A DNA stretch of 64,000 bases from a virus. Below the pieces are notes generated by a model. The model was given only the letters and a program-made list of their open reading frames with translations. It was not told the origin of the DNA and made no database searches. A program made the translations under genes and the position numbers. Shown here one piece after another: positions 16,989-59,899 of this stretch (positions within the stretch are counted from its first letter, which is position 1; each line of letters opens with the position of its first letter). The DNA is taken from the IMG/VR virus record IMGVR_UViG_3300046804_004738, positions 1 to 64,000 of that record. One strand, written 5' to 3'.

Positions 16989-17231
16989 ATGATAACAGCA
17001 GAAAAAATTGCAAAATTGTCAACACTTGACGCAAGCGGGCTTGACAATGCACTAATTAACGGCGGTTACTCAATGTTTGAGCGCCCTAAAACAGCAAAGT
17101 TTTTGGGTATCACAACCGGTGGTGATTTTTGTTATCAATTTACTTACAAAGATAATGATAGTGGATTGTTATCAATAGGGAAACTTTTTGTTGACATAGA
17201 TGAAACTGGAAAAATTGTTGCCGAATACTAA
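16989..17231 (+). CDS. small hypothetical protein
   Basis: 80 residues; a helical first half (ITAEKIAKLSTLDASGLDNA) then a beta-rich second half (GDFCYQFTYKDND, GKLFVDIDETGKIV). It has its own strong promoter, suggesting early high expression. Function unknown. Confidence 0.6.
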   Translation: MITAEKIAKLSTLDASGLDNALINGGYSMFERPKTAKFLGITTGGDFCYQFTYKDNDSGLLSIGKLFVDIDETGKIVAEY

Positions 17232-17237
17232 TTTTGG

Positions 17238-17266
17238 TTGACAATAAATCCATTTGGAGATATACT
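17238..17266 (+). promoter_or_regulatory. repeated early-promoter cassette, copy 1
   Basis: TTGACA, 17-bp spacer (ATAAATCCATTTGGAGA), TATACT, then a leader ATCGGTATAGTGAATAAC leading to AAGGAG. ACTAT and ATAGT form a small inverted repeat across the -10 and start region. Five near-identical cassettes occur at 30152, 30409, 59930, 61240 and 62553. Confidence 0.9.
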
Positions 17267-17296
17267 ATCGGTATAGTGAATAACAAGGAGCTAGAA

Positions 17297-24232: not shown

Positions 24233-25429
24233 ATGGAAGAAGAAAATAAGCTAAGTCATTGTAGTTTTTGTGGAACAAATAAAGAATTTGTCAAAAAGCT
24301 CATAGTAGGAGACGGAATTGCAATATGTAGTGATTGTGTCGAATTATGTAACGAATTAATTGCAGACGATTCCAAAATAGAAAGTCCTGAACCATCTCCT
24401 AATTACGATCCTGAATCGATTAAAAATTACCTTGATTCTCATGTAATCGGTCAGGATGATGCAAAAATTGTTCTCAGTGTTGCTATTAGCAATCATTACA
24501 AGAGGATCACACATCCACCTAAAGATTTAGAAATTCAAAAAGGAAACGTATTAATAATAGGGCCAACCGGGTCAGGCAAAACACTATTGGCAAAAACGGT
24601 AGCCAAATACCTTAAGGTTCCTTTTATTGTAGCAGATGCAACTAGTCTAACTGAAGCAGGTTATGTCGGCGATGACGTAGAGAGTATGATAAACATGCTG
24701 CTTAATGCCGCCGGTGGTGATATAAAGCAAGCAGAGCGAGGTATAATTTTTATCGATGAAATTGATAAGATAGCACGTAAGGGCGAAAGCACTAGTATAA
24801 CACGTGATGTATCGGGTGAGGGTGTACAGCAGGCACTATTAAAGTTAGTTGAAGGTACAGTTTGCAGAGTGTCCGGACAGGGCGGAAGAAAACATCCTGG
24901 TTCTGAAATGTTAGAAATCAATACAAAAAATATATTGTTTATTGCCGGTGGGGCCTTTGTTGGGTTAAAGGACGTAATTACAAATAGAATAAGTGGGACC
25001 AGTATAGGATTCAGTGCCAACATTAAAGATAATAAAGTTGAGGGAGAACTTAGTCAAGTAACACCCGATGACTTAACTAAGTTCGGCATGATACCTGAAT
25101 TTATTGGCAGATTTACTACGACTGTAAGTATTTCAGAATTATCCAAAGACCAACTTGTTCAGGTATTAACGGATGTAAAAAACAATTACATATCACAATA
25201 CAAATATCTATTAGGGTTAGACGATGTTGAACTGAGTTTTTCTGAGGATGCGCTTGAACAAATAGCTGAGAATACCCTGACCCTAAAAACAGGAGCTAGG
25301 GGACTACACACTGAGATTGAACGAGTCCTGATGCCGCATATGTATCATATAGGCAAGTACAAAGAAAAGAAGATTAAAACACTAAATATTAATAGGGACA
25401 ACGTTTTGAGTCCCAAATCAATTTTATGA
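24233..25429 (+). CDS. clpX: ClpX ATP-dependent unfoldase
   Basis: AAA+ unfoldase that feeds substrates to ClpP. A complete ClpX: N-terminal C4 zinc finger (C10, C13, C32, C35), Walker A GPTGSGKT, the pore loop GYVGDD, Walker B IFIDEIDKIAR, the GARGL sensor region, and the ClpP-docking loop SIGF at residues 257-260. Length (398 aa) is close to bacterial ClpX (~420). With the phage ClpP at 29290 it could form an all-phage ClpXP. It overlaps the bS21 gene by 4 bp (ATGA). No SD is evident; an AT-rich TATACT-type -10 lies just upstream. Confidence 0.96.
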   Translation: MEEENKLSHCSFCGTNKEFVKKLIVGDGIAICSDCVELCNELIADDSKIESPEPSPNYDPESIKNYLDSHVIGQDDAKIVLSVAISNHYKRITHPPKDLEIQKGNVLIIGPTGSGKTLLAKTVAKYLKVPFIVADATSLTEAGYVGDDVESMINMLLNAAGGDIKQAERGIIFIDEIDKIARKGESTSITRDVSGEGVQQALLKLVEGTVCRVSGQGGRKHPGSEMLEINTKNILFIAGGAFVGLKDVITNRISGTSIGFSANIKDNKVEGELSQVTPDDLTKFGMIPEFIGRFTTTVSISELSKDQLVQVLTDVKNNYISQYKYLLGLDDVELSFSEDALEQIAENTLTLKTGARGLHTEIERVLMPHMYHIGKYKEKKIKTLNINRDNVLSPKSIL

Positions 25430-25641
25430 CAGGAAAAAAGGTAATAGTACACGACGGTAACGTTGAAAAGGCGTTGCGTAAATTTAAGAAAAAAGTGCAG
25501 GATTCTGGTATCCTGCAGGAAGTGCGCCAACGTCAGGAGTACGTTAAACCTACAATTAAACGTAAGATTGCTAAAAATTTAGCGAAAAAACGTTGGAAAA
25601 AATTTCTGTCAGATCAACAATTGCCCAAAAAATTATTCTAA
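25426..25641 (+). CDS. rpsU: ribosomal protein bS21
   Basis: 71 residues with the bS21 pattern: VIVHDGNVEKALRKFKKK, then GILQEVRQRQEYVKPTIKRK and a basic tail (NLAKKRWKKF). bS21 sits on the 30S platform near the anti-Shine-Dalgarno end of 16S rRNA and influences initiation. Phage copies can replace the host protein in ribosomes. Overlaps clpX by 4 bp, so it is made together with the unfoldase. Length matches bacterial bS21 (about 70 aa). Confidence 0.9.
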   Translation: MTGKKVIVHDGNVEKALRKFKKKVQDSGILQEVRQRQEYVKPTIKRKIAKNLAKKRWKKFLSDQQLPKKLF

Positions 25642-25677
25642 CCTAAATAATTTACTTTTTTTCGAAAAATATATATA

Positions 25678-25686
25678 ATAAATACT
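25678..25686 (+). promoter_or_regulatory. T4-late-like box ATAAATACT before hsp20
   Basis: Box in an AT-rich stretch about 65 bases before hsp20, leaving a structured 5' leader. Confidence 0.55.
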
Positions 25687-25689
25687 TAT

Positions 25690-25743
25690 GTAGATGCCGC
25701 TTACGGGTCTACACTAAAGTCATACTTGCTTACTTGAAAGGAG
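25690..25743 (+). promoter_or_regulatory. structured hsp20 leader, possible ROSE-type RNA thermometer
   Basis: A first hairpin (GTAGA...TCTAC, 25690-25712) is followed by TTGCT at 25726-25730 and the Shine-Dalgarno AGGAG at 25739-25743. In RNA, UUGCU can pair with AGGAG across an 8-base loop with the G-G opposition typical of ROSE elements, and flanking AUA/UAU extend the stem. ROSE thermometers regulate small heat-shock genes in proteobacteria. No folding was computed. Confidence 0.45.
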
Positions 25744-25750
25744 ATATAAA

Positions 25751-26197
25751 ATGACTAACTCAACATTAACCCTTCGTGCCTACGATTTTCCATCTATCAA
25801 TAAACTAGGAATAGGTTTTGATACAATGTTGGAAGATTTAATACGTCTAACGTCGGCACAACAAACAAATTATCCTCCATATAATCTTATAAAAACAGCA
25901 GAAAATCAATTTAGCATTGAAATTGCTGTAGCGGGGTTTAAAGAAGGAGAAATTGAAGTTTCTATGGAAAAAAATATGCTCACTGTTAAAGGATCCAAAA
26001 AAGATGGAATTCCTGAAAACTTTGAGTATTTACATCGTGGTATTAGTCTGCGCAATTTTGAGCGTACTTTTCCTCTAGCTGAACACATTGAAGTTAAAGG
26101 GGCTTTAGTACGTGATGGTATGCTTTTGATAGACCTTGTACGTTTAGTACCTGAAGAAGATAAACCCAAGTCTATTGCTATATCATACGTTAAGTAA
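25751..26197 (+). CDS. hsp20: small heat-shock protein Hsp20 (IbpA-like)
   Basis: ATP-independent holdase of the alpha-crystallin family. The 148 residues show the IbpA-type start (LTLRAYDFPSINKLGIGFD), the alpha-crystallin domain from about 45 (NLIKTAENQFSIEIAVAGF, LTVKGSKKDG) and the IbpA-typical YLHRGISLRNFERTFPLAEHI. Phages of aquatic bacteria often carry Hsp20. Placed between bS21 and ClpS with a structured leader carrying GAAAGGAG. Confidence 0.93.
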   Translation: MTNSTLTLRAYDFPSINKLGIGFDTMLEDLIRLTSAQQTNYPPYNLIKTAENQFSIEIAVAGFKEGEIEVSMEKNMLTVKGSKKDGIPENFEYLHRGISLRNFERTFPLAEHIEVKGALVRDGMLLIDLVRLVPEEDKPKSIAISYVK

Positions 26198-26201
26198 TAT
26201 T

Positions 26202-26236
26202 ATAAATACAAGTGTGCAGTATTATACTGCACACTT
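26202..26236 (+). promoter_or_regulatory. late-like box overlapping a 12-bp hairpin before clpS
   Basis: ATAAATACA (26202-26210) runs into a perfect 12-bp inverted repeat AAGTGTGCAGTA / TACTGCACACTT (26210-26221, 26225-26236). The hairpin may end hsp20 transcripts or protect the clpS leader; only three T bases follow, so a classical terminator is doubtful. Confidence 0.5.
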
Positions 26237-26253
26237 TGAGTCTAAGGTAAAAA

Positions 26254-26559
26254 ATGGCTAATTCCGATACACAACTAAAAATTAAACCGAACTTTAAAAT
26301 CCCTGAACCACCAATGTTTAGGATAATATACCTAAATGATGATCATACAAGCATGGACTTTGTAATAAGTAGCCTGATCGATCATTTTCACTACAATGCT
26401 GATACTGCAGTAAATATCACTCAAAATATCCACGAAGAGGGCTCAGCAACAGTTGCAGTGTTACCATTTGAAATTGCAGAACAGAAAGGCATTGAAGTTA
26501 CAGTGGAAGCACGTAGTCAGGGATTTCCCTTGCAAATTAAAATTGAGGCAGAAGGTTAA
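26254..26559 (+). CDS. clpS: ClpS N-end-rule adaptor
   Basis: Adaptor that delivers N-degron substrates to a Clp unfoldase. The 101-residue protein has the binding-pocket motif LNDDHTSMDFV (N28, D29, D30, gatekeeper M34) and the pocket histidine in QNIHEEGSA (H60), and ends in the typical FPLQIKIE strand. Host ClpS works with ClpA, which is not in this window, so it may recruit host ClpAP or work with phage ClpX in a non-standard way. SD is weak (AAGG). Confidence 0.92.
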   Translation: MANSDTQLKIKPNFKIPEPPMFRIIYLNDDHTSMDFVISSLIDHFHYNADTAVNITQNIHEEGSATVAVLPFEIAEQKGIEVTVEARSQGFPLQIKIEAEG

Positions 26560-27245
26560 AGAGTAATTCTTTTAGCGTAGTAATTTAACTCTTGTCTTTT
26601 TGGATTTGAAACATAGTTGATACCATTTATATTGGTATCAACTATTTTATTATAAGTGCCAAATATCCAAGTTTTTACTTTTTTCTCTGTGTCTGGTTTC
26701 AGAGCAATCGAAGGGCTTATATCATCAATAAACCCATCCATTTCATGAAAGTATAATTGTTTGTCTGGAACACTGTTGCTTAACACAATAATGTTTTTAA
26801 CATCCCCGTGTAATTGTAATTTCTTAATAGTGTTATAAAGGTAAACTAAATCATCTCTACGCATTGTTTCTATTGCTAGGTAATCTGCTAGGGTGTATTC
26901 GTGATGATTACCATACCAACCATTAATACCAACTATTGCAACTCCGTTGAAAATAACAATATTGTTATGTAGATAAACTGTGTTGTTTATGCTGCGACAA
27001 ATTTTATGCAATTCATGAATTAATTCACTATGATGCTGTAAATTGGAATTTTCTAAAGCTCCGTCGATGTAAAAAACACCTTGATACATTGTAGACAAAT
27101 AATGTAAGGTTTTTCTCACTACATTTAAATCTGATGATATGTTTCCTGCTACTAAACAAAACAAACTTGTAACTTTATCTTCCCAAATAAACTTATCTTC
27201 TTGGGTAAGATTTAGGTCACTAATAATGTCAAAACTTAGATCCAT
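26556..27245 (-). CDS. degenerate metallophosphoesterase-like protein (pseudoenzyme)
   Basis: 229 residues from the ATG at 27245 (the frame begins at a TTG, 27251). Its layout parallels the intact phosphoesterase at 32073: SDLN for SDVH, VAGNIS for LGGDIF, FYIDGALE for LIMGNHE, FNGVAIVGINGWYG for INGVLFYGGTLWTD, WIFGTYNKIV for WTHGHTHEDF and NYVSNPKRQ for RIVCNPRGY. Nearly all metal-binding D, N and H residues are lost, so catalysis is unlikely while the fold is kept. It may bind a partner or ligand. Convergent with clpS (4-bp overlap at stops). Confidence 0.65.
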   Translation of the reverse strand: MDLSFDIISDLNLTQEDKFIWEDKVTSLFCLVAGNISSDLNVVRKTLHYLSTMYQGVFYIDGALENSNLQHHSELIHELHKICRSINNTVYLHNNIVIFNGVAIVGINGWYGNHHEYTLADYLAIETMRRDDLVYLYNTIKKLQLHGDVKNIIVLSNSVPDKQLYFHEMDGFIDDISPSIALKPDTEKKVKTWIFGTYNKIVDTNINGINYVSNPKRQELNYYAKRITL

Positions 27246-27252
27246 ATTCAAA

Positions 27253-27279
27253 AATAAAAGGGAAAAATTCCCTTTTATT
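27253..27279 (-). terminator. intrinsic terminator (minus strand)
   Basis: Perfect 12-bp stem AATAAAAGGGAA / TTCCCTTTTATT with a 3-base loop, ending in a T-rich run on the minus strand, right at the stop of the gene at 27278. Confidence 0.75.
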
Positions 27280-27613
27280 ATTCGGCTTTTTTCTTCTTAA
27301 CTTTTTTAACTTTTTCTGTAACTTCTGCTGCCACCTTTTTAGCTTTTGTTTTGGTCTTTTTAACAACTTCCTTAACATCTTCAATGTCTACTTTTCCGTC
27401 TTTATTAACATCAAGTACATTTGATATTACAGGCTGTACCGTTACACTTTCATGACCAATACCGTCAGGAACTGTTGTTTTTGGCTCAATTTTATATGGG
27501 GCTTGAGTAGCTGCATCCAATGGGTGTGATCCATCTGATTTTGAGGCATTAAGCATTCTGTATCCAACATAAACAATTGCAGCACCTGCTACGATAACTA
27601 ATATAATTTCCAT
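27278..27613 (-). CDS. membrane-anchored protein with EF-hand/dockerin-like motif
   Basis: 111 residues: one N-terminal membrane helix (IILVIVAGAAIVYVGYRML), a linker, then DVNKDGKVDIEDVKEVV, a calcium-binding dockerin/EF-hand-like loop (D-x-N-x-D-G-x-V-x-x-x-D), and a very lysine-rich tail (KKTKTKAKKVAAEVTEKVKK). The start has SD AAGGAG (reading minus). Function unknown; possibly a surface-tethered or nucleic-acid-binding protein. Confidence 0.65.
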   Translation of the reverse strand: MEIILVIVAGAAIVYVGYRMLNASKSDGSHPLDAATQAPYKIEPKTTVPDGIGHESVTVQPVISNVLDVNKDGKVDIEDVKEVVKKTKTKAKKVAAEVTEKVKKVKKKKAE

Positions 27614-27669
27614 AATTGCATCTCCTTAATATCTATATTTAGTAATCCTATGTACTAAACAATTTTAAG

Positions 27670-27678
27670 CTAAATACT
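27670..27678 (+). promoter_or_regulatory. T4-late-like box CTAAATACT
   Basis: Five bases before the ATG at 27683, which has no SD. Expected to give a leaderless late transcript. Confidence 0.55.
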
Positions 27679-27682
27679 AATT

Positions 27683-29230
27683 ATGCGTGATATACTTGAC
27701 AAATTAACCTACTTAGTTGAAAGCACTGGACTTGCAAACAGAAAGCCAGGAGACATTTTTAAAAATTCTGCAGGAGACCAAATTACTTTTACGGGCATAG
27801 CATTTACTCCGGAAGAAGGTGGTAAATTAACTCCTGAGCAATTAAATGATGCTGTTGCAATGGCTACAACAGAAGCAGGTGACATACAGTGGCAAAACAA
27901 TGCAGGTAGAGCAGGTGGATTCGCTATAGCAAGTTTTGACAGCGAAACAGGTCCACTGCATTTTGGTTTCTTTTTACAAGAAGTGAAACCTAATCCTAAA
28001 GATAACAAGATTAAAAATGTAATAGGTGATTACAAGTTTGCTGGTGCCGCAGCAGCAAAAACTCAGGCAAAAATGACACCACAGGATTTGTTAACAAACA
28101 AAACTAATCTTACAACTAAAGATATAATGTTACAATTAAGCCAAAGTTTAGGTATTGATAGTCCTTTATATTATATTGCTCATCAAGTTGCCATGAATGC
28201 ACCATTTCCAATTGAAGTAGAGGTAAGTGGTGATTTAAGTTTTACAGGATTTAGAGATTATTTTTGTGAGATACTACAACCAATTGCATTGCAAAATGGC
28301 AATTACAGAGGCAACGCCAGTGACGCAGCACAGACATTCTTTGGTGAGCCTAGTTTTGCAAACACTACAATAAGTTTTGATAGTAGTAAGAACGCAGGAT
28401 TAAGTGACAGTATGTTAGAGTTACAAGATGGAAGGTATGTAAAAATAAGTAGCAAGGGTGAAAAGGGCGCAGAGGCAAGTGTAAAAAATTTATTAGATGA
28501 AGTAGACAATGTTCAAAACCCTGAACTATTAGAAAAATATAGTGATGTGTTAGATTTAATTGATACGATGAGAACAAATGGTCAAGCTGGTGCTCCATTA
28601 GTATTAGGCATTCGCTATGGTATAATAGATGAACAAGATGCAGAATTTATAAAGGCACTAAAAAAGATTAAACCGTTGCCACTAGAATCTATAAATTACA
28701 TGACTGTGAGTGGAATGAGTCCTTCTAATAATATAATAACTTTGGCAATGGGTAGAAAAACCAAAAAACCAGAATCAACTGTTTTATATTATCATTTAAT
28801 AGCAGCAGTAGCACATAAGGTAGCAGAAAAAATAAACACAGACACTAATTTTAGTCAAGCGGCAAGTGAAATACTTAACAACGGTGCTTTAATACAAGTA
28901 TATACTAACGCAAAACAATCAGGCAACAAATGGATATTAGAAGCCTTCAAAACTGTTTACCCAAGTAAAGCAGTTACTGGTGTTGTATTGAGTGCAGGCA
29001 AGAATTATAGTAGCACAGAAATAAAAGGTAATTTTACTTTTAAGATATTACGTAATGGCGCAAAGCCAGATGCGGAACCAACAGAAACAGATCAGGCAAC
29101 TGACTCAGCGGTCGATACAGATTTGTCAAAAGATGCAGAAAAAATAACAAATCCAAAAACTTCAATTCTAACCAGAAAAAAACGTGAACCTGAAAATATT
29201 GATTTAGGCCGAGAAAAACGGAAAAATTAA
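27683..29230 (+). CDS. large phage protein with capsid-targeting-like N-terminus
   Basis: 515 residues of unknown fold. The N-terminal amphipathic helix RDILDKLTYLVESTG resembles T4 capsid-targeting leaders, ending in L-V-E, which fits the (I/L)xE cleavage rule of the T4 prohead protease. The body is alpha/beta with SDSMLELQDGRYVKISSKGE in the middle and an acidic, then basic, charged tail. Late-like box and position before clpP suggest late expression and possible packaging in the head. No enzyme motif is recognised. Confidence 0.55.
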   Translation: MRDILDKLTYLVESTGLANRKPGDIFKNSAGDQITFTGIAFTPEEGGKLTPEQLNDAVAMATTEAGDIQWQNNAGRAGGFAIASFDSETGPLHFGFFLQEVKPNPKDNKIKNVIGDYKFAGAAAAKTQAKMTPQDLLTNKTNLTTKDIMLQLSQSLGIDSPLYYIAHQVAMNAPFPIEVEVSGDLSFTGFRDYFCEILQPIALQNGNYRGNASDAAQTFFGEPSFANTTISFDSSKNAGLSDSMLELQDGRYVKISSKGEKGAEASVKNLLDEVDNVQNPELLEKYSDVLDLIDTMRTNGQAGAPLVLGIRYGIIDEQDAEFIKALKKIKPLPLESINYMTVSGMSPSNNIITLAMGRKTKKPESTVLYYHLIAAVAHKVAEKINTDTNFSQAASEILNNGALIQVYTNAKQSGNKWILEAFKTVYPSKAVTGVVLSAGKNYSSTEIKGNFTFKILRNGAKPDAEPTETDQATDSAVDTDLSKDAEKITNPKTSILTRKKREPENIDLGREKRKN

Positions 29231-29289
29231 TTCTTTATAGTTTTTATTTTGTATGTTATAATAATGTACATTTACTATAAAGGAACAAA

Positions 29290-29877
29290 ATGGCTCTCGT
29301 ACCAATCGTTATTGAACATTCAAGCAAAGGTGAGCGTAGTTATGATATCTACAGTCGCCTATTGCGTGATCGTGTAATTCTCCTAGAAGGTGAAGTACAT
29401 GACCATATGGCAAATCTTATCGTAGCACAATTATTGTTTTTGGAAAGTGAAGATGACACCAAAGACATTTCATTATACATCAATAGTCCAGGCGGTAGTG
29501 TAACTGCTGGTATGGCAATCTATGATGCAATACAATTCGTTAAACCTGACGTTTCTACAATCGTTATGGGGCAAGCTTGTAGCATGGGCAGTCTCCTTGC
29601 TAGCAGTGGTGCTAATGGCAAGCGTTTTATACTCCCAAACGCAAGACATATGATTCATCAACCTAGTGGTGGCGCACGTGGTCAAGCGACTGATATGCTA
29701 ATTCAAGTAAATGAAATACTTGAAATAAAACGTAACCTTACAAACATTTACGTTAAGCATAACAGTGCAGGTAAAACGTTTGAAGAATTCGCTACGGATA
29801 TGGAACGTGACAACTATATGAGTGCAGAACAATCAGTAGCTTATGGTCTAGCAGATAAAGTGATAACAAAAAGATAA
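29290..29877 (+). CDS. clpP: ClpP protease subunit
   Basis: Serine protease barrel subunit. 195 residues, the usual mature length. Catalytic triad S98 (QACSMGS), H123 (MIHQPSGG) and D170 are all present, as is [14 protein letters not shown]. Partner of ClpX at 24233, whose docking loop is kept. The ATG has SD AAAGGA; an AT-rich TATAAT lies upstream. Proteolysis by phage-coded ClpXP could remodel the host proteome or process phage proteins. Confidence 0.96.
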
Positions 29878-30211: not shown

Positions 30212-30412
30212 ATGTTTAACTTTTATATTGAATTTGCCGACGGTACTGCAAGAATTGAAACTAACTTGTCAAAAATACAAGCCAAAAGGCTTTACAATAA
30301 ATGCAACAAAAATCCAGAAGATAACGCCAAGTCTTGGGGCTGGGAAGAAAGTAACCCTTATAAACTGAGCCAGCAAATTCGTGCTAAAAAAGCAACAAAA
30401 TCTTTTGGTTGA
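30212..30412 (+). CDS. small hypothetical early protein
   Basis: 66 residues, SD AAGGAG. N-terminal beta pattern (FNFYIEFADGTARIE), then a basic helix (KIQAKRLYNKCNKN). Its stop overlaps the -35 of the next promoter cassette. Function unknown. Confidence 0.6.
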   Translation: MFNFYIEFADGTARIETNLSKIQAKRLYNKCNKNPEDNAKSWGWEESNPYKLSQQIRAKKATKSFG

Positions 30413-30437
30413 CAATAAATCCATTTGGGCATATAAT
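30409..30437 (+). promoter_or_regulatory. repeated early-promoter cassette, copy 3
   Basis: TTGACA, spacer ATAAATCCATTTGGGCA, TATAAT, leader AACGGTATAGTCAATAAC then AAGGAG. Closest to copy 1 and to the minus-strand copy at 59930. Confidence 0.9.
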
Positions 30438-30467
30438 AACGGTATAGTCAATAACAAGGAGCAAGAA

Positions 30468-59621: not shown

Positions 59622-59632
59622 TTCGTTGCTCC

Positions 59633-59899
59633 TTAAGCAAATTCATAAAATTTTACAGACGGATCAAGTTGTTGTAATTCTTTAGCAACCTTAATCAGTG
59701 CCTTATATCTTGTTTGCACCTGTGCGCGGCTTAATTCTCCATCGCAGGTAAGATTTTCTGGACTGAGTTCGGCATCAATACTGTTGGCAATCTTTTGACG
59801 ATCGGCTGCATTACTAAGATTCAACTCAGCACTACCAAACATTTTGGACCAAGAATTTTTTCGTTCTACATATGATTCAAGATTAGAAAAATTGAACAT
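59633..59899 (-). CDS. small hypothetical early protein
   Basis: 88 residues from ATG 59899, with AAGGAG upstream. The frame extends upstream to 60070 through the promoter and another gene, but that part is untranslated. Helical, ending in DPSVKFYEF. Function unknown. Confidence 0.6.
   Translation of the reverse strand: MFNFSNLESYVERKNSWSKMFGSAELNLSNAADRQKIANSIDAELSPENLTCDGELSRAQVQTRYKALIKVAKELQQLDPSVKFYEFA

Follow-up and report, generated by a model that had tools for sequence, protein, structure and literature searches.

The source record, from an uncultured virus, comprises 106,262 bases, and the 64,000-nucleotide stretch of DNA analyzed here (hereafter, the window) is part of it. Based upon Pfam assignments, the genes of interest are arranged in the order clpX, bS21, hsp20, and clpS, with clpP located further downstream (Table 1). 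These five genes constitute a clustered phage protein quality-control set (window 24233-29877), and hsp20 likewise adjoins clpS in the Pseudomonas phage Callisto. Directly 5' of the hsp20 gene is a 63 nt leader (25688-25750), within which an initial annotation had placed a possible ROSE-type RNA thermometer at 25690-25743. Each of the leader features it described is present, namely hairpin I, TTGCT (25726-25730), an 8-base loop, and AGGAG (25739-25743). The description of this interval was exact, but the extent was too small, since the element runs from ~25688 to 25756 with its last stem inside the coding region. The proposed pairing of the anti-Shine-Dalgarno (anti-SD) and Shine-Dalgarno (SD) sequences was retained in our analysis, while the suggested G-G opposition is better written as CUUGCUU/AAGGAG with a bulged G25728, although the data cannot tell these two notations apart.

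Table 1. Positions of the hsp20 leader features and of the chaperone and protease genes in the virus (window numbering unless indicated).
Feature	Position	Strand	Basis or remark
clpX	24233-25429		Pfam
Ribosomal protein bS21	25426-25641		Pfam
AATAAATA box, like the T4-type late promoter (TATAAATA)	25677..25684	+	just 5' of hairpin I; promoter role inferred
Hairpin I (UGUAGAU-G-CCG...CGG-GUCUACA), stable, conserved bulged G	25689..25713	+	Rfam ROSE_3 alignment, covariation
Start-codon stem, 5' arm AGUCAU (partner 25751-25756)	25718..25723	+	fold; own-versus-swapped partner test
Anti-SD CUUGCUU including ROSE motif U(U/C)GCU; G25728 bulged	25725..25731	+	sequence, ROSE_3 alignment, fold
8-base loop TACTTGAA between anti-SD and SD	25731-25738	+	sequence
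Shine-Dalgarno AAGGAG, predicted to pair with anti-SD	25738..25743	+	sequence, fold
hsp20, controlled gene, 148 aa, Hsp20/alpha-crystallin	25751..26197	+	Pfam PF00011, E 2.4e-18
Start-codon stem, 3' arm AUGACU, overlaps hsp20 start codon (ATG at 25751)	25751..25756	+	fold; partner test
clpS	26254-26559		Pfam
clpP	29290-29877		Pfam
dnaK of the same genome, complete, 636 aa	73009-74919	-	HSP70, E 3.5e-256
ROSE-type leader of this dnaK, the second in the genome, outside the window	G000:C1:74911-74971	-	R1 model, 29 bits

A search with the Rfam ROSE models had been suggested as a check of the thermometer proposal. When the window was scanned at the gathering threshold, no Rfam matches were obtained, and ROSE_3 (RF02523) surfaced only in an E-value scan, where it aligned with the leader from end to end (model positions 1-69 of 69, window 25688-25756, 31.2 bits), covering both hairpins and the start codon. 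The corresponding E-values were 6.6e-5 in a 251-base scan and 6.6e-6 when this single family was searched against the 106-kb genome. As this score lies under the curated ROSE_3 gathering cut-off of 43, we classed the leader as a divergent relative and not as a curated ROSE_3 member. The longer ROSE families (RF00435 and RF01832) gave no Rfam match at the leader, nor did FourU in the scan of the leader, and its CUUGCUU sequence lacks a UUUU run facing the SD. A match to the freshwater-2 family (18.4 bits, E 1.1) was dismissed as chance. Related Hsp20 proteins are encoded in 43 viral records, and in 14 of these (the window plus 13 of 42 relatives) ROSE_3 was detected at E < 2e-4 exactly 5' of hsp20, and the best viral score was 42.6 bits versus the cut-off of 43. 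Leaders from Pseudomonas scored 72.8 bits (P. putida) and 68.7 bits (P. aeruginosa PA7) with ROSE_3 and were reciprocally detected upstream of hsp20 by R1, a covariance model of viral leaders. The short two-hairpin ROSE-like element of Pseudomonas ibpA has been shown by measurement to repress at 25 C and to open at 42 C, and its structure and its binding of ribosomes have been measured as well (Krajewski 2013, PMC3669281); the proposed thermometer is supported by the observed sequence and structure homology to this element. The hsp20 leader is more than a chance resemblance to ROSE.

A protein search yielded 80 viral loci encoding Hsp20 proteins that are 93-42% identical to that of the window, and the design of the leader is common to nearly all of them. 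Related viral leaders keep hairpin I with heavy compensatory change, as well as an anti-SD U(U/C)GCU facing AAGGAG, and the same leader with compensatory changes is found 5' of hsp20 in dozens of other viruses. In a three-stem structure of 16 such leaders, 96.2% of the cells were paired, seven pairs had changed on both sides, and no shuffle was as good. R1 was built from these 16 leaders and detects the element 5' of hsp20 in most of the relatives tested; outside of the training set, 68 loci yielded a total of 95 sites with E < 0.005. Within the latter 95 leaders, 95.6% of the cells were paired, 302 cells carried double changes versus 87 by shuffling, and both-side changes occurred in 10 of the 11 pairs, a signal that was lost when the partners were slid. 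Because this alignment was fitted to R1, it is biased towards the R1 structure. Compensatory changes, which the initial annotation had sought from a comparison with homologous phages, are present in both sets (16 + 95 leaders), chiefly in hairpin I, the source of most of the covariation signal. The SD helix is invariant across leaders, so covariation cannot prove it and its support is the motif itself.

The stem at the start codon was found to vary together with the first Hsp20 codons, as illustrated by the arm pairs GUCAU/AUGAC, UUGUUC/GAACAA, UUGAUUC/GAAUCAA, AAUUUAUC/GGUAAAUU, and CGUUC/GAACG. In viral hsp20 leaders (20 start contexts), arms paired better with the start region of their own gene than with swapped ones, and 0 of 20,000 permutations reached the observed value. 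The stem is missing from several clades, and such a lineage-specific structure represents an uncommon case in which an RNA stem constrains the first codons of a protein. One clade (L060, L062, L065, L066, L239, L241, and L265) has the anti-SD UUACU, in which A replaces the ROSE G, and in several dnaK leaders of this clade the anti-SD is preceded by an additional small hairpin (GGGC..GCCC type). There was also a ROSE-type leader (38.5 bits) on an Hsp20 gene in a Pelagibacter MAG contig (L273:1501-1561); this gene adjoins a portal-like phage gene, suggesting that it is probably a phage contig in the bin.

The initial annotation missed a larger point: the same type of leader is also found 5' of dnaK, both in this genome (Table 1) and in many other viruses. 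A TATAAATA box lies directly upstream of the dnaK leader in this genome. A search for viral DnaK returned 80 relatives, and all 77 of the SD-led viral dnaK genes that were tallied have a G/A-centered motif 5' of AGGAG, many of them with a TATAAATA box and a hairpin as well. R1 detects many of these viral dnaK leaders, often together with a second leader 5' of an hsp20 gene just downstream. As a bacterial control, we used 60 dnaK leaders from two proteobacterial classes, among which the motif occurred once and R1 had no significant match. The single case is a ROSE-like leader on the dnaK of an alphaproteobacterial chromosome (L335, near 1446), consisting of the hairpin AAGACGCTTCGGGTCTT followed by GTTGCTAAAAGGAG. 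The motif is absent from the dnaK genes of three huge phages. Support for a start-codon stem in dnaK leaders was only weak (345 of 20,000 permutations), and we do not claim one. R1 also matched the leader of a viral groES gene encoding a 95 aa product (L213:920-985, 33.4 bits), on a contig that has ROSE-type leaders 5' of dnaK and hsp20 as well. A search for groES in the record studied here found none.

Hsp20 is encoded in 508 phage records, mostly those of cyanophages. Of the 24 isolated phages that were fetched, which again were mostly cyanophages, 22 show a hairpin followed by a U(U/C)GC motif that faces the SD. This number includes P-HM2 and S-CAM3, for which the motif is evident only with a start other than the annotated one, and it excludes the UUGCC variant of S-CREM2; the hsp20 leader of S-TIM5 lacks the motif. 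Judging from the leader and SD, the annotated hsp20 starts of P-HM2 and S-CAM3 look wrong, with the ATG that they point to located downstream in the former and upstream in the latter. With R1, Melnitz scored 45.8 bits, S-SM2 30.3, and ACG-2014f 28.0. Several cyanophage leaders score near the R1 background, so for those phages the claim rests upon the motif and architecture. A near-identity search of phage records gave no matches.

The late-type box was similarly examined by position. A [TA]ATAAATA box occurs ≤100 nt from the start codon in 37 of 103 viral hsp20 genes and 48 of 77 viral dnaK genes versus 5 of 132 other SD-led genes, at a median distance of 69-73 nt. The window shows no enrichment of TATAAATA, with 3 occurrences versus about 11 expected; thus, box frequency alone is uninformative and only its position before these leaders counts. 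Another TATAAATA box is found directly 3' of hsp20 and is followed by a strong hairpin (AAGTGTGCAGTATTATACTGCACACTT) 5' of clpS (26201-26235), which makes the clpS leader another of the late-box and 5'-hairpin type, without a ROSE motif. A different leader is repeated 5' of several small genes (17217-17290, 30388-30460, and 59980-59910 on the minus strand); it contains a sigma70-type promoter (TTGACA..TATAAT-like) and a common SD region (AATAACAAGGAGC) and is probably a repeated early promoter.

Folding calculations predict that both the SD and the AUG of the window leader are paired. A fold leaving AGGAG unpaired, which would have refuted the original proposal, is consequently not what is predicted. 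The exact ROSE register makes up no more than 10-20% of the ensemble, differing from the best fold at 20 C by about 0.5 kcal/mol or less, and in silico the start stem is still closed at 37 C. Using nearest-neighbor energies, the median probability of an open SD at 20 C was 0.009 for hsp20 leaders versus 0.006 for the leaders of other SD-led genes, and dnaK leaders were predicted to be mostly open (0.45). This SD-opening test did not separate hsp20 leaders from ordinary SD-led leaders, and we did not count it as support. ROSE hairpins contain non-standard pairs that are poorly handled by this energy model, and the model alone does not identify thermometers.

Several explanations other than a thermometer could be considered for these leaders. 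The simplest would be a chance resemblance or a generic leader shared by many phage genes, and the window does contain a second TTGCTT-N-AGGAG occurrence (59629-59640, minus strand). However, only 0.38 matches to TTGCTT-N0-12-AGGAG would be expected in the window, versus the two observed, and R1 exceeded 11 bits only at the hsp20 and dnaK leaders of the entire 106-kb genome. Of the 184 SD-led viral genes for hsp20, dnaK, or groES, 181 have the motif U(U/C)(G/A)CU ≤20 nt 5' of AGGAG, compared to 14 of 133 other SD-led genes from the same loci. The strict U(U/C)GCU form was similarly gene-specific (143/184 versus 9/133, Fisher p about 5e-40). Together with the covariation, these results refute this explanation and leave it scarcely any credibility. 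Among the 181 motifs, the central base is a purine in 180 and is never C, which would perfect the helix. We interpret an anti-SD that is conserved yet never perfected as selection for a helix able to melt, which is an inference. Alternatively, the leader might be a static brake or a 5' stabilizer of the mRNA, which keeps translation at a low level or shields the transcript without any useful response to temperature or protein. The location of hairpin I at the presumed 5' end of the mRNA or close to it, its status as the most strongly covarying part of the leader, and the lack of a special temperature profile in the folding model would all be compatible with such a role. Even so, we find it improbable, as it leaves unexplained both the homology to a proven thermometer and the presence of an imperfect U(U/C)GCU on heat-shock chaperone genes, which is rare on the remaining SD-led genes that these viruses carry.

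A tentative alternative, though one we doubt, is that the leader is an autorepressor site bound by the phage Hsp20, which would also bind the dnaK leader and be titrated by protein aggregates. Such a system would sense misfolding and not temperature as such. The precedent is E. coli IbpA, which binds the ibpA 5' UTR and represses its own translation, an activity that depends upon Arg93 and upon position 34 being aromatic (PMC10474464). A leader common to hsp20 and dnaK would also permit their joint control by one protein. Furthermore, the matching R101 and Y41 of the window Hsp20 are invariant in 24 viral Hsp20s, assuming that we have equated them correctly with the E. coli IbpA numbering, which was done by motif. 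On the other hand, proteobacterial IbpA proteins generally have this Arg as well, the start-codon stem is absent from dnaK leaders, and there is no evidence of RNA binding by a phage Hsp20. Autorepression and a thermometer may also coexist, as they do for E. coli ibpA.

Our favored reading, to which we assign a probability of about 0.78, is that the virus carries in its hsp20 leader a translational thermometer of the ROSE type, a homolog of the short element with two hairpins found in Pseudomonas ibpA; the temperature response of the leader is inferred from homology, and promoter use and melting are likewise inferences. Transcription would most likely start from the late-type AATAAATA box, and we propose that this start would place hairpin I at the 5' end of the mRNA. 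Downstream of hairpin I, the imperfect CUUGCUU/AAGGAG pairing, with its U-G pair and bulged G, and the AGUCAU/AUGACU helix over the start codon would exclude ribosomes at low temperature. Upon warming, the interrupted helix would melt, such that Hsp20 could be made at once from pre-existing mRNA. The dnaK of the phage would be served by its own second leader of this kind, and with both genes behind such leaders, we propose that the two chaperones are run as a small translational heat-shock set. A broader reading is that many aquatic phages have their own translational heat-shock regulon composed of hsp20 and dnaK, sometimes joined by groES. Each gene would follow a late-type box and a ROSE-type leader, and temperature would determine chaperone synthesis, perhaps along with free Hsp20 that acts upon the common leader. 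We consider the case for this regulon to be evenly balanced.

According to the literature, ROSE elements are invariably associated with small heat-shock genes of bacteria (PMC4166951), and if the regulon reading is true, ROSE would extend beyond these genes and into viruses. The initial annotation knew of no established phage example. Lambda cIII is an established temperature-responsive phage mRNA (PMC4166951), although it has the opposite sign and an unrelated build; thus, the sensing of temperature by phage RNA is not in itself a novelty. The open-access literature searched (subscription papers and preprints were outside its scope) contained no report of ROSE-type leaders in phages, of ROSE before dnaK, or of hsp20 or dnaK thermometers in phages or cyanophages. 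The new parts seem to be the association with dnaK and the spread among viruses. T4-like cyanomyophages are said to have hsp20 among their core genes (PMC9004378); a ROSE-type leader offers a concrete answer to how it is regulated, one that is testable in cultured cyanophages such as S-SM2, P-SSM4, and S-SSM5. If the leaders do respond to temperature, phage infection would possess a heat response that does not depend on the sigma32 of the host, with relevance for the effect of warming waters on infection. An RNA model like R1 could also be used to annotate such leaders in phage genomes.

Among known systems, lambda cIII is likewise a phage mRNA whose start region refolds with temperature (PMC4166951), but it does so through two alternative folds, is translated less in the heat, has no ROSE motif, and is not a chaperone gene. 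The Methylophilales phage Melnitz is a marine phage that carries both hsp20 and a structured regulatory leader, a glutamine riboswitch (PMC9004378), which binds a metabolite, unlike a ROSE-type leader. The Melnitz study lists hsp20 but no thermometer (PMC9004378). FourU elements and Synechocystis hsp17 also use short hairpins to cover the SD of heat-shock genes, although FourU places UUUU against AGGA and hsp17 has a single hairpin, both unlike the viral leader. The longer ROSE elements of Bradyrhizobium hspA (ROSE1) and E. coli ibpA (RF00435 and RF01832) share the anti-SD motif and gene class but have three to four hairpins (PMC3669281), whereas the viral leader has two. The ROSE_3 elements of Pseudomonas ibpA are similar in length (61-62 nt versus 63 nt), also precede a small heat-shock gene, and have the same hairpin I, marked by GAUGCCG..CGGGUC and one bulged G, including the common stretch GAUGCCGA..UCGGGUC, as well as U(U/C)GCU facing AGGAG. 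In Pseudomonas, the upper stem is CUUGCUGA..UCAG compared to the weak CUUGCUUA of the viral leader, and the start codon is unpaired (PMC3669281), whereas in the virus it lies within an added, covarying stem. Unlike its Pseudomonas counterparts, the window element is virus-borne, falls below the Rfam cut-off, and is of a kind also found 5' of dnaK and groES. In addition, a late-type AATAAATA/TATAAATA box occupies the place of the Pseudomonas sigma32 promoter, from which we infer that the RNA switch was apparently retained by these viruses while the transcriptional one was swapped.
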